From Candidatus Nitrosacidococcus sp. I8 (lineage in GTDB: Bacteria; Pseudomonadota; Gammaproteobacteria; Nitrosococcales; Nitrosococcaceae), in the NCBI RefSeq assembly GCF_945836005.1, contig NZ_OX241534.1, positions 868,001-932,000 of the forward strand: 64,000 bases of DNA. Direction: 5' to 3'. The notes under the pieces are model-generated. The model had not been told where the DNA came from and made no database searches. It saw nothing but the letters and a program-made list of their open reading frames with translations. Every line of letters starts with the position of its first letter. The stretch's first letter is position 1. Made by a program: the position numbers and the translations under genes. This document shows positions 4,070 through 50,992 of the stretch, piece by piece.

Positions 4070-4552
4070 ATGAATATAAAAAACCAAACTATTTTAATCC
4101 TAGCATTAGGTATTGGTATCAATTTTTCTGCCCAAGCTCGTTCAAATATGGGGTTTTTCCAATCTGGCGGTCATAGCAGTACGTTTACGCCTGGATCTTT
4201 TTCCTCTCTAACTGCCCAGAGTTTTTCTGGGGTTGCAGGAGTGAGAAATGGTTTAGTTTTACAAAGTTTTTCAGGCGGCACTACAAGTGTGAGTAGCATA
4301 TTTACAGGTAACCCCTCTTTTGTAAATCAAGGCAGTGGACCTAACTTTCAATTTGCGGGTTCAGGTAACTCCTTTAATTCTAGCTTTAATACCACTATCG
4401 TTAATAATTATATAAATATATATTATAATCAAACATTTAACTTCAATAACGTATCTTTTAACAATAGTCCTATTATAAATGGACGGGGTAATAATGTTGT
4501 TTACCATGGACATCATCCATATACACCTTCCAGTCCTGATGGAAGTGCCTAA
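4070..4552 (+). CDS. Small secreted Ser/Gly/Asn/Phe-rich protein, function unknown
   Basis: I do not recognise a family. The 160-residue product has a clear signal peptide (NQTILILALGIGINFSAQA, cleavage likely after AQA) and a mature part of low complexity, rich in Ser, Gly, Asn and Phe (QSFSGVAG, SGNSFNSSFN, NNVSFNNSPIINGRGNN), ending in HGHHPYTPSSPDGSA. There are no Cys residues in the mature part and no PEP-CTERM anchor. It lies after a 138-base gap within the EPS locus, so it may have its own promoter. A matrix or export-associated structural protein is possible, but that rests on context only. Confidence 0.65.
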   Translation: MNIKNQTILILALGIGINFSAQARSNMGFFQSGGHSSTFTPGSFSSLTAQSFSGVAGVRNGLVLQSFSGGTTSVSSIFTGNPSFVNQGSGPNFQFAGSGNSFNSSFNTTIVNNYINIYYNQTFNFNNVSFNNSPIINGRGNNVVYHGHHPYTPSSPDGSA

Positions 4553-4571
4553 TAAGATAGGATGATCAATT

Positions 4572-6079
4572 ATGAATAATGCTAGATCAGCCTACCCTAG
4601 AACAAGGGAAAGTAATACATTATGGCTATGCTTAGGGGCAATTATTTTATTTGCCCCTTTGTTCCGTGCAGGCATTCAGCCATTACCTCTCATGACTCTT
4701 GAATTGATGGCCCTAGCGTTACTTACCCTAACTTGGTTAGGGCAAAAAAAAAACAAAAGATAACCTTTTCTGAAGGAGCTATCCTCACAGGGATAGCTCT
4801 TGTTCCTTTAATTCAACTGATTCCACTGCCCATAGAAATCCTTTCAAAGCTTTTCTCGGGTAGATTTTTTTATTTTGAAGGTATTTCTCACACTTTAAAT
4901 CAAGATAATATTTCTAACCGCTGGCACTCTATAGCCCTTATTCCTAGTGCAACAGAGCTTGCTTGGCTTACATTACTTCCGCCCATTGCAGTTTTTATTT
5001 CTACCCGATATATCACAAGCCAGCAACTTAAAAAGCTAATCTATTTATTTTTAGGTATCGTTTCTTTTGAAGCCATTCTAGGCTTAATTCAATATGGTGA
5101 AGGATCAGAGAATCCCTTCAGACTAGGCAATGAGTATTATAACGATAGTGCAGTAGGTACTTATATAAACCGCAATCACTTGGCAGGCTTGTTGGAAATG
5201 GCATTACCAGTGGTTTTAGCCATATTAATCGCAGTGATTAAAAGAAACCCTAAGATAAGAGCTAAGACAGAGGGAAGATGGTATCAACTTCTTTTACGCT
5301 GGAGTAATAACCAAGGTAATTATTTCTTACTTTGTTTTACCATAGCTATTATTATTCTATTAGGTACAATTTTCACCCGATCCCGCACTGGGATTATGTT
5401 AGTGATGCTTGGATTAATTTTAAGTTTTTTTGTTTTTATCCGAAAAATAGACTTAAAAAAACTCTACGGCACGGCTGGTTTTATTATTTTTTCTAGCCTA
5501 ATTTTCGCCTTTGAGATTGGTCTTACACCTATTTTTAATCGTTTTGCCGTAATAGATGAGAACATGGAAAAAGGTCGTGGGCTAATTTATTCTGGTACTT
5601 TACAGGCTATTAATGAATTTTTCCCTTTTGGCAGTGGGGCTGGCAGTTTTGCTGAAGTCTTTCAGCGATTTCAGCCTATTGATTTTACAGAAGGCTATGT
5701 GCATCGAGCTCATAATGACTATTTAGAATGGATTTTAGTAGGGGGGTTACCTGCTGCCATTTTGATTGTTGCTAGTTTTGTTGTATATGGTCGAAGATGG
5801 ATTAAAATTTGGCAGTGGGGGCAAGAATCAATTTTCTATTTTATTCAAATCGGAGCAGGTATTGGCACACTACTATTATTACTCCATACTTTTGTAGATT
5901 TTAATCTTCATATTCCGGCGAATGCTATTTTCTTTGCGTTTTTACTCGGAGTATTTTTCTATCCGTTAGAGCAGCAGCAAATTCATAGCAAAAAAAATAA
6001 ACCCACTGCCTCTTTACCCTATTATCCGCCTAAGCCTAAAGAGATTCCTAAAGAAAATTTAACTAATCCGTTTGATTAG
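4572..6079 (+). pseudogene. O-antigen ligase / polymerase family membrane protein, interrupted by a -1 frameshift
   Basis: Two adjacent reading frames together encode one polytopic membrane protein of about 500 residues. The first (4572-4763) has a good ribosome site (AGGATGA six bases before ATG) and encodes the first two membrane helices. The second (to 6079) lacks a credible start (TTG at 4733, no Shine-Dalgarno) and holds the remaining helices plus the conserved Wzy_C/WaaL-type loop (FTRSRTGIM; RAHNDYLEWILVGG). The break is at a run of ten A residues (4744-4753). In PEP-CTERM-type EPS loci this family ligates or polymerises repeat units in the periplasm. The gene could be a pseudogene, a sequencing error, or expressed by slippage; the rest looks intact. 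Confidence 0.8.
4744..4753 (+). other. A10 homopolymer containing an in-frame A-AAA-AAC slippery heptamer
   Basis: In the frame of the upstream ORF the codons are caa-aaa-aaa-aac, so the run ends in the classical -1 slippery heptamer A AAA AAC. A -1 slip, or one extra A added during transcription, joins the two halves of the O-antigen ligase gene in the required frame. Whether this is used, or is a length error in the run, cannot be told from the sequence. Confidence 0.55.
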
Positions 6080-6082
6080 ATA

Positions 6083-6517
6083 GTGGACATCTCTATGCTT
6101 GATGTTCAGCATCTGCAAATAAAATTTGTTAAAGGCATCAATTATCTAAAGCAAAATATTTCAGATCTATGGCCAGTATATATATTTGGTTCTCAAGTAA
6201 CAGGAAAGACATGGAAAGAAAGTGATATAGATTTAGCCGTACTCGCACGCCAACCCTTAGAGAAATTATATCGCTATGAACTCCAAGAAGCACTCATTGA
6301 AATATTCAACCAAGAAGTAGATTTAGTGGATCTAAAACCAGCCTCTACCGTATTTCGTATGGAAATTATCAGCAAAGGACAGCGATTATTTGTTGCAGAT
6401 TCTGTATTAATAGATGTGGAATTATTTGAAGATCGAGTTTTTCTAGATTATGTACAACTTAACGAAGATCGAGCAGGGATTTTAGCAGATATTTGTCAAC
6501 GAGGCAGTATTTATTAA
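6083..6517 (+). CDS. mntA: MNT-type nucleotidyltransferase antitoxin (MntA-like), module 1
   Basis: This 144-residue minimal nucleotidyltransferase has the signature GSQVTGKTWKESDIDLAV (from about residue 36) and a third acidic position in EVDLVDL, so the catalytic triad of Asp residues appears intact. In HepT/MntA (type VII) systems the MNT protein inactivates the HEPN RNase by AMPylating a tyrosine. GTG at 6083 gives the longest frame; ATG at 6095 is an alternative. Its stop codon overlaps the ATG of the HEPN partner (TAATG), typical of this pair. It lies four bases after the O-antigen ligase gene, so the module is embedded in the EPS operon. Confidence 0.85.
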   Translation: MDISMLDVQHLQIKFVKGINYLKQNISDLWPVYIFGSQVTGKTWKESDIDLAVLARQPLEKLYRYELQEALIEIFNQEVDLVDLKPASTVFRMEIISKGQRLFVADSVLIDVELFEDRVFLDYVQLNEDRAGILADICQRGSIY

Positions 6518-6907
6518 TGGATGATGTCATCCTAAACAAAGTAGCTATTATTGAACGGTGCTTAAGGAGAATTAAAGAAGAATATGATGGCTATGAAGCT
6601 GATCTAGAAACAAATTTCACTCGCCAAGATTCCATTGTGCTGAACTTACAACGGACTTGTGAAGTAGCCATTAGCCTAGCAATGCACCTTACCTCAAGAG
6701 AGTAGAGATGGATTTGAACTGCTTTATCAGGCAGAAATAATCGATGAAAGGCTATGCCAGCAAATGAAAAAAATGGTAGGGTTTCGCAATATTGCAGCCC
6801 ATCAATACGAAAAGTTAAATCTATTAATAATTCGTCATATTGTTGAAAATCGCTTAAATGATTTTCTAAAATTTACCCAAATTGTTTTACAGCAGACAAA
6901 AAAATAG
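6517..6907 (+). pseudogene. hepT: HEPN RNase toxin (HepT/DUF86), module 1, broken by an internal deletion and frameshift
   Basis: The gene starts at ATG 6517. It reads as a normal HepT N-terminus (MDDVILNKVAIIERCLRRI ... NLQRTCEVAISLAMHL) until about 6690, then stops at TAG 6703. The remainder continues in another frame from about 6692 (PQESRDGFELLYQ ... VGFRNIAAHQY ... ) to TAG 6905-6907. Compared with family members as I remember them, some eight residues between AMHL and PQ are missing, so a deletion of roughly 20-26 bases not divisible by three explains the break. The RNase motif R-x4-H followed by Y (RNIAAHQY) survives in the out-of-frame part. The toxin should be inactive. Confidence 0.82.
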
Positions 6908-6915
6908 TCACTCTG

Positions 6916-7221
6916 ATGCGGCTTCAGCCTAAAGAAATAAGTGCAATAAAGCAAGCAGTCGAAGCTGTTATTGGATCAGATGCGAAAGTATATTTATTTG
7001 GATCCAGAACCGATGATACTCAACTTGGAGGAGATATTGATTTGCTGGTAGAGGTGAATAGAATGGCTGATTCTTCCACTCGCTTAGATCATCGAATTAA
7101 ACTAAAAACCCAACTCTATCAGCTCATCGGTGAGCAGAAAATCGACTTAGTAATAAATTATACCAACACACCTGAAACTGCCTTTCAAAAAAGTATTAAG
7201 AAAAATGCTCTTCTTTTATGA
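6916..7221 (+). CDS. MNT-type nucleotidyltransferase antitoxin, module 2
   Basis: This 101-residue nucleotidyltransferase-domain protein has GSRTDDTQLGGDIDLLV (from about residue 29) and a third acidic position in KIDLVI, so the metal-binding residues are present. It belongs to a different MNT subfamily from the upstream module, judging by its shorter length and the sequence around the motif. It begins nine bases after the broken hepT and overlaps the start of the second HEPN gene by four bases (ATGA at 7218-7221). By family knowledge it would neutralise that HEPN protein; with the partner interrupted it may be an orphan antitoxin. Confidence 0.85.
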   Translation: MRLQPKEISAIKQAVEAVIGSDAKVYLFGSRTDDTQLGGDIDLLVEVNRMADSSTRLDHRIKLKTQLYQLIGEQKIDLVINYTNTPETAFQKSIKKNALLL

Positions 7222-7679
7222 ACAGTATTCTAGAAGAAAAATATCATCTACTTACTGAACCTTATAAAATTGGCGAAAGAAGTGCTGTAGTACTTCGATA
7301 TTCCTATGAAAAAATTAATCCATCTAAACTAGGTAGTAATACTGATTCAGATTTTTTAGAAACCCAAGAAGCATTAGCAGCTCGTTTTGCTAGATTAACT
7401 GACATTTAAACTCGAAGGATATTTAGAGCAATTGCTGCTATTGAATTTGCGGATGTTCAAAGATTTTTGGATCTATTAAATTTTATGGAAAAACTTAAAA
7501 TTATAGATTCAAGCCAGCAATGGGTTGAAATTAAAGAACTACGAAATATTATTGTGCATGAATATGAGGTTGATGATTTATTAAATCTATTTAATAAAAT
7601 ATATAGCTATGTACCTATATTATTTGATACTCTAAACCAAGTAAAAAATTATTTATCAAGTACTAAGATGAATAAATGA
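7218..7679 (+). pseudogene. HEPN-domain toxin, module 2, interrupted by an in-frame TAA
   Basis: One frame runs from ATG 7218 to TGA 7677-7679 with a single internal stop, TAA at 7407-7409. Before the stop it reads ...AARFARLTDI; after it TRRIFRAIAAIEF and so on without any frame change, as in intact relatives where this position is a sense codon (ILTQKIFRAI-like). The HEPN RNase motif RNIIVHEY (R-x4-H-x-Y) lies after the stop, so a truncated 63-residue product would lack it. No slippery run is present, so this is best read as a genuine nonsense mutation, or recoding by a suppressor, which is unlikely. Confidence 0.85.
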
Positions 7680-13324: not shown

Positions 13325-14658
13325 ATGGTTTTGGCGATTAGTATTGTATTTATAATAATTATGGTTTTATTGTTTCTTCTTATAGCGAAGAAGAAACGAC
13401 TATACTTTACTTTTTGGTCCCCAGTACATGGAGTTCCCATAATTTATGGACTAATCGGATCTTTAGGATACTTTTATTATCAATATAATGATGAGTATTT
13501 AGGTGGTTTTTATGATGTAGGAGTCTACGATTCAGAACTAATAGAGGGGCTATCTGTTTTTTTTTCTCTATTAGTTTTTTTTTAATAGGTGCATCAATTT
13601 ATCTTTTTTTATCTAAAAAAATAAGAGAGTATAAATCTACAGATAAATTCAGTGCACTAAAAAAGATATCAGACTTTAATAAAAAATATCATAATAAATT
13701 ATATCGTCACAGTTTTAGTACTTTATTTATTCTTTCTCTACCGATATTTTTGATTATTTTAGGTAAAGGTCCACAGAATTTTCTTTTAAATCATGAATAT
13801 TTAATAACAGAAAATCACCGTACTATAATTATAGGCTTGACGTTATCACTCCCGTCAGTTTTTATTCTAGGCACTTTAACATATGAAAGAAATTCAATTG
13901 TTTGGCGTTTATCTTGTATATCGTTATTAATAATTTATCTACTGGCTTTTTTAAGCTTATCAACTCGCCGAATTGTGATTTTATTTGCGTTTTATATAGT
14001 AGGATCTACTTTAGGGAAAGCAAAACCAAAAACAATTTTTCTATTAATTTTATTCTTCATATTATCTTTACCACTATTAATACATATCCCATTGAAACTC
14101 AGAGGAATGCCAAATCAGGGGCTTATGGCTATTCCATCTAATCTAACATCTATATTAATAGATGATAATGGTAGTTTATATTTTGATTATGTTAATAATC
14201 TTATAAGGAATACAGCTTTTGGTGTTCCACTTACAGCTTATATGAAAAATAGTGCACCTCTTCCAAAGACACTTCTTATTATTGGTATAAATCCATTACC
14301 TTCTTTTATTACATTACCTGGGTTACCTGATTGGAAGCAGGTAAGGGAATCTTTATACATTAAAGCATTTGTTCCTTACGGTACACTCGGAGAACTCGTA
14401 AACTATGGCTGGGTATGGCTTTTTTTCTATTATTTTTTTGTTGGCGTAATAGCTACTTGGGTAGATATTAAACTTCGTATATATAAGGAAAATCGTAAAC
14501 GTTTTGGTTTTTTCATAAGTAATGGTCTTCTATTCTTGTTTGCTCTTTCATCAACCGAGTATCCTCTACGCTCTTCAACACGATTACTTTATTATGCAGT
14601 AGCTATTGCTCTCTTATGGCGATTTTTATGTAGAATACGGATAAAGCCTAGGATTTAA
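13325..14658 (+). pseudogene. Wzy-like oligosaccharide repeat-unit polymerase, interrupted by a -1 frameshift at poly-T
   Basis: A first frame (13325-13585) encodes about 86 residues with a membrane helix and a loop. The frame one base back is open across 13561-14658 and encodes the remaining roughly ten helices (LGKGPQNFLLNHEYLITENH, LSTRRIVILFAFYIVGSTLG, FALSSTEYPLRSSTRLLYYA). Joined, they give one polymerase-like protein of about 440 residues. The switch must occur in or between two runs of nine T (13557-13565 and 13575-13583). The downstream half has no plausible start (TTG 13750, no ribosome site). Wzy polymerases are very divergent, so the family call rests on topology, the Arg-rich loop and its position. 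Confidence 0.72.
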
Positions 14659-32877: not shown

Positions 32878-32915
32878 TTTTGTTAGGGTGCACTTATAAG
32901 TGCACCCTAACAAAA
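32878..32915. terminator. Bidirectional Rho-independent terminator (perfect 38-base palindrome)
   Basis: TTTT, then GTTAGGGTGCACTTA, its exact complement TAAGTGCACCCTAAC, then AAAA: a perfect palindrome with a T-run in each direction. It lies ten bases after the PEP-CTERM gene and twelve before the apt stop, so it would end both convergent transcripts. Confidence 0.92.
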
Positions 32916-50954: not shown

Positions 50955-50992
50955 AACAAAAAAGAGGATGTATATACATCCTCTTTTTTGTT
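50955..50992. terminator. Bidirectional terminator (perfect 38-base palindrome)
   Basis: AACAAAAAAGAGGATGTAT and its exact complement ATACATCCTCTTTTTTGTT form a perfect palindrome, giving a GC-containing stem flanked by A6 and T6. It lies eight bases after the DUF937 gene and 19 before the stop of the convergent secreted-protein gene, serving both. Confidence 0.9.

Follow-up and report, generated by a model that had tools for sequence, protein, structure and literature searches.

A Wzy_C-family gene split at a run of ten adenines in an acid-tolerant ammonia oxidizer: most likely a run-length error in the assembly

Within the 64,000 nucleotides analyzed here (the window), two overlapping reading frames at positions 4572–6079 are, judged from their sequence, the two parts of one Wzy_C protein, separated at a run of ten A. 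The split is most likely an undercall of the length of this run in the deposited assembly, a reading to which we give a probability of about one half. The wrong run length is what we infer; what is observed here is the orthology, the integrity of the gene outside the run and the fact that other long runs carry breaks too. The gene would then be an ordinary EPS polymerase or ligase of the Wzy_C family, intact and in a single ORF as in its relatives, and the A-run would arise from the lysine-rich cytoplasmic loop that follows the second membrane segment, together with the AT-richness of the genome. The record affected is the published genome of an acid-tolerant ammonia-oxidizing bacterium, and anyone using it uncorrected would take the EPS polymerase, and even acpS, for broken genes.

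The split gene and its orthologues

The features of the split gene, and the second polymerase-like gene discussed below, are as follows.

4559..4562, + strand: AGGA, a ribosome-site-like motif, read directly, 9 nt 5′ of the ATG at 4572
4572..4763, + strand: ORF1, read as the N-terminal part (63 codons) of the Wzy_C protein; the N-termini of the orthologues (L005–L007) are colinear by eye
4733..6079, + strand: ORF2, read as the rest of the Wzy_C protein; the orthologue alignment spans 4754–6079
4744..4753, + strand: A10 run, read directly, where the frames part by −1
4748..4754, + strand: heptamer A_AAA_AAC, in phase with ORF1, read directly, not present in the orthologues
4774..4801, + strand: 12-bp RNA hairpin, −18.1 kcal/mol, 19 nt 3′ of the heptamer, probably coincidental
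13325..14658, + strand: second EPS polymerase-like gene, whose frames part at the T9 runs 13557–13565 / 13575–13583

ORF1 extends from the ATG at 4572 to a TAA at 4763. Its 63 residues, which end in LGQKKNKR, carry two N-terminal hydrophobic segments and the start of a K-rich loop. There are exactly ten A at 4744–4753, followed by C4754, and direct reading of this A10C (4744–4754) confirms the −1 difference between the frames that had been proposed in an earlier, sequence-only reading of the region. That reading also held that the upstream ORF has a ribosome site and the downstream ORF no start signal. Both points stand: the AGGA 9 nt before ORF1 is a plausible site, and ORF2 has only a mechanical start at TTG 4733, with no Shine–Dalgarno motif before it and the first ATG only at about codon 165. 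The ORF2 frame has 458 open codons (4703–6076) and its stop at 6079, and the A10 run lies inside the overlap of the two ORFs.

ORF2 matches Wzy_C (PF04932) over the full profile (2–149) with 55.7 bits, against a gathering cut-off of 31.7. The match of the split gene to TIGR04370 (repeat unit polymerase, NCBIfam) is below threshold, at 19.4 versus 40 bits, and a search of solved structures by sequence gave no relative. The gene had been called an O-antigen ligase. Its membership of the PF04932 family holds, but the name is a Pfam family label only and the protein may be a polymerase or a ligase. The locus also contains genes for a Wzc-type kinase, a DnaJ-domain protein, a TPR protein, a flippase, glycosyltransferases and GDP-mannose 4,6-dehydratase. 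Given these EPS-type neighbors, the split gene is assigned to EPS synthesis. The exosortase-associated ligase (TIGR03097) is a separate gene, located elsewhere in the genome.

The orthologue is one intact ORF of 501–509 aa in three genomes of the same family (G002–G004, probably Nitrosococcus), with 56–58% identity to the ORF2 part over 441 aa; the relatives searched include no second genome of the same genus. The codons at the loop were inspected, and the comparison with related genomes that had been suggested thus gives three single ORFs out of three, with no A-run longer than seven. When both frames of the split gene are read, the spacing across the K-rich loop equals that in the orthologues. 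Since the orthologues are intact, ORF1 is colinear with them and the loop spacing is equal, the fused protein is the ancestral form, and the single intact ORFs of the relatives bear out the earlier view that a fused product is the functional one. Further disabling mutations in the downstream half had been named as a possible sign of decay. In the 441 codons 3′ of the A10 run there is no second lesion, and conserved residues are kept in the orthologue alignment. The orthologues resemble the split gene also in having a small secreted-type protein upstream and, in L005, a relative of the TPR protein (by eye); they differ from it in being single ORFs that have neither a long A-run nor a split. In a search of genome contigs, the window protein alone matched nothing and the alignment used as query gave 80 more distant homologues, which were set aside. 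There were no homologues among viral contigs.

Breaks at long runs across the genome

The genome is a contig of 1,848,551 bp, which encodes an AMO-family protein. Counted on both strands, it has 348 A8, 46 A9 and 7 A10 tracts and none of A11 or longer, and the run-length ratios resemble those of relatives. Because A/T runs of at least 9 are ordinary in an AT-rich genome, the A10 is by itself unremarkable; the break is noteworthy because a conserved protein is split. Reading frames were considered genome-wide, around every A/T run of at least 9. Genes with these runs are mostly intact. A clear break at such a run occurs in four genes, and the frame offset is identical in all four: the Wzy_C gene, the second EPS polymerase-like gene, a secreted protein and acpS. 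Among 30 A8 runs taken as a sample there is no clear break, and none was seen at A7/A8, G8 or C7 runs within the window. The presence of breaks at other long runs and their absence at shorter ones indicate a length effect, not one specific to the Wzy_C gene.

The second EPS polymerase-like gene likewise matches TIGR04370 below threshold. It has no orthologue in the related genomes searched, and its split is judged from profile coverage only. In the secreted-type protein (G000:C1:1735512, L145) the signal peptide switches frame at a T9 run. The acpS gene (G000:C1:380915; L116, L148) is frameshifted at the A9 run of a T8A9 tract and contains stops, and it is the sole match to PF01648 (ACPS-family) in the genome. 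From what is established about fatty-acid synthesis, bacteria generally require acpS, and as the only copy it cannot simply be dead. In another genome of the family (G001), where about two dozen runs were inspected, one signal peptide looks broken at a T10 (G001:C1:262219, L155).

A further T10 (G000:C1:443715, L009) lies just 5′ of where a lysozyme-like protein has its open frame, and may mark an N-terminal break. As a fifth case it is ambiguous and of different sign, and it was left out of the count.

The genome of ‘Ca. Nitrosacidococcus urinae’ I8 was obtained with MiSeq and Nanopore (PRJEB52462) and assembled with NECAT, and the methods section describes no polishing. Residual nanopore consensus errors are typically homopolymer indels, and runs of at least 10 are problematic even with R10.4 (PMC9262707). 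The breaks found here are similar, in that they occur in a nanopore assembly, a product of an indel-prone platform, only at the longest runs and with the same sign, in unrelated genes whatever their function. They are dissimilar in that runs up to A8 are clean, which is better than expected of an unpolished older-chemistry assembly. A survey of prokaryotic frame transitions considered unclustered (singleton) frameshifts likely to be indel mutations or sequencing errors (PMC3711429). The Wzy_C frameshift is an unclustered (singleton) case and so falls in that class. Homopolymer error was one of the options offered by the sequence-only reading. It is favored here because breaks recur at other long runs, including that in acpS, because this type of data is prone to such errors, and because it calls for no special biology. 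A wholesale compression of homopolymers in the assembly was also considered, and is rejected by the run-length ratios.

Against an assembly error, the shorter runs are clean, the ratios are like those of relatives, and most runs of at least 9 are in frame. The clean shorter runs imply that the consensus is good, and MiSeq polishing may have been applied. The similar T10 break in G001 makes a biological cause common to the family possible. That unrelated genes are hit, one of them essential, fits either an assembly undercall or tracts that are real and are rescued by slippage of RNA polymerase. The preference for an assembly error over real tracts is thus modest, because the shorter runs are clean and slippage-tolerated frameshifts are documented elsewhere. 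Long A/T runs are also truly mutable in bacteria, with about 12% of such loci mutated in Salmonella (PMC8538453).

Explanations in which the run is real

A tentative alternative is that the A10 is real and that RNA polymerase slips on it, such that some of the transcripts are in frame and the gene is functional. The run at the frame switch has at least 9 A/T and is followed by 441 codons that are otherwise open, and many bacteria are prone to slippage at runs of 9 A/T (PMC1088944). Slippage would also explain both the break in the essential acpS and the absence of decay in ORF2. There are two precedents. In tssM1 of Citrobacter rodentium (PMC4256274), an A11 run similarly lies shortly 5′ of a stop, with the full-length product in the other frame. 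However, that run lies towards the 3′ part of tssM1 and two functional products were demonstrated, whereas the A10 is near the start of the Wzy_C gene, the 63-aa product would be without the Wzy_C domain, and the case is known from sequence only. Frameshifted genes of Blochmannia and Buchnera give 12–50% corrected transcripts (PMC3017870). There too a number of genes are affected, essential genes among them, and the breaks are confined to runs of at least 9 in an AT-rich genome, but these genes belong to obligate endosymbionts and are backed by RNA evidence, while the present organism is a free-living nitrifier known from DNA. The E. coli polymerase slips more on poly-T than on poly-A (PMC6260861), and a low level of AcpS would be costly to a free-living cell, for which reversion is easy. 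If the tracts are real, it is conceivable, if rather doubtful, that a free-living acid-tolerant nitrifier expresses a frameshifted acpS and two EPS polymerases by RNA-polymerase slippage. Slippage-tolerated frameshifts, one of them in an essential gene, would then extend beyond insect endosymbionts, from which such expression is mainly known, to an organism that lives freely and has a reduced, AT-rich genome.

It is unlikely that the A10 is real and hypermutable and forms a reversible on/off switch of a phase-variable polymerase, which would be off in the population sequenced. In its favor, one locus has two EPS polymerase-like genes, each with a break at its longest run, and genes for surface polysaccharides are typical targets of phase variation (PMC3711429). 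However, breaks occur also in acpS and in the secreted protein, the numbers of runs are not raised relative to the ratios in relatives, and the flippase of the EPS locus has a T10 run with its reading frame intact. A switch dedicated to polymer ligation does not fit a cause shared by unrelated genes, among them the essential acpS.

A recent real frameshift, which would make the gene a young pseudogene, is improbable. Decay does occur in this stretch, because the adjoining HepT-like genes have genuine lesions away from homopolymers, but the Wzy_C gene itself keeps its conserved residues over 441 codons with no second lesion. General decay of the locus was rejected as the sole cause for this reason, and because the HepT-like lesions are not changes of run length.

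A full-length protein could also come from programmed −1 ribosomal frameshifting at A_AAA_AAC with the hairpin as stimulator. This is the least credible of the explanations, and it was rejected as the main one after the phase of the heptamer, the downstream fold and the orthologue codons had been examined. The “classical slippery heptamer” of the sequence-only reading is indeed in phase at 4748–4754 (ORF1 codons CAA AAA AAA AAC) and the shift has the correct sign, but every phase of an A10 contains some slippery heptamer, so that its presence adds little, and A_AAA_AAC is far less shift-prone in E. coli than A_AAA_AAG (PMC5009743). It therefore gives no support for recoding, the motif being weak, the hairpin distant and the site not conserved: neither the run nor the split occurs in the three orthologues. 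When a 60-nt stretch was shuffled 200 times, no shuffle matched the 12-bp hairpin; however, this stretch was picked after the fact, and over 100 nt z = −0.86. The spacer is 19 nt, compared to the 5–9 nt most studied (PMC5009743), and a comparable downstream fold is found at 2 of the 72 other runs of A7 or longer in the window, on either strand (3 of 73 with this one).

Other observations in the window

On the 3′ side of the split gene, positions 6083–7679 hold two tandem nucleotidyltransferase/HepT-like pairs of the MNT-HEPN type. Both HepT-like genes are broken. One has a frameshift and has lost sequence, the other has an in-frame stop, and neither lesion is at a homopolymer.

Just 5′ of the polymerase gene, positions 4070–4552 encode a small secreted-looking protein. 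The same slot in the relatives is also occupied by a small secreted-looking protein (L005 871–1239, L006 663–1202 and L007 3193–3741). These upstream proteins look unrelated between some of the genomes, that in L005 having RPD repeats, and the slot appears to be fast-changing.

An inverted repeat with perfect 17-bp arms and a 4-base loop lies between genes at each of 32878–32915 and 50955–50992; both are probably terminators.
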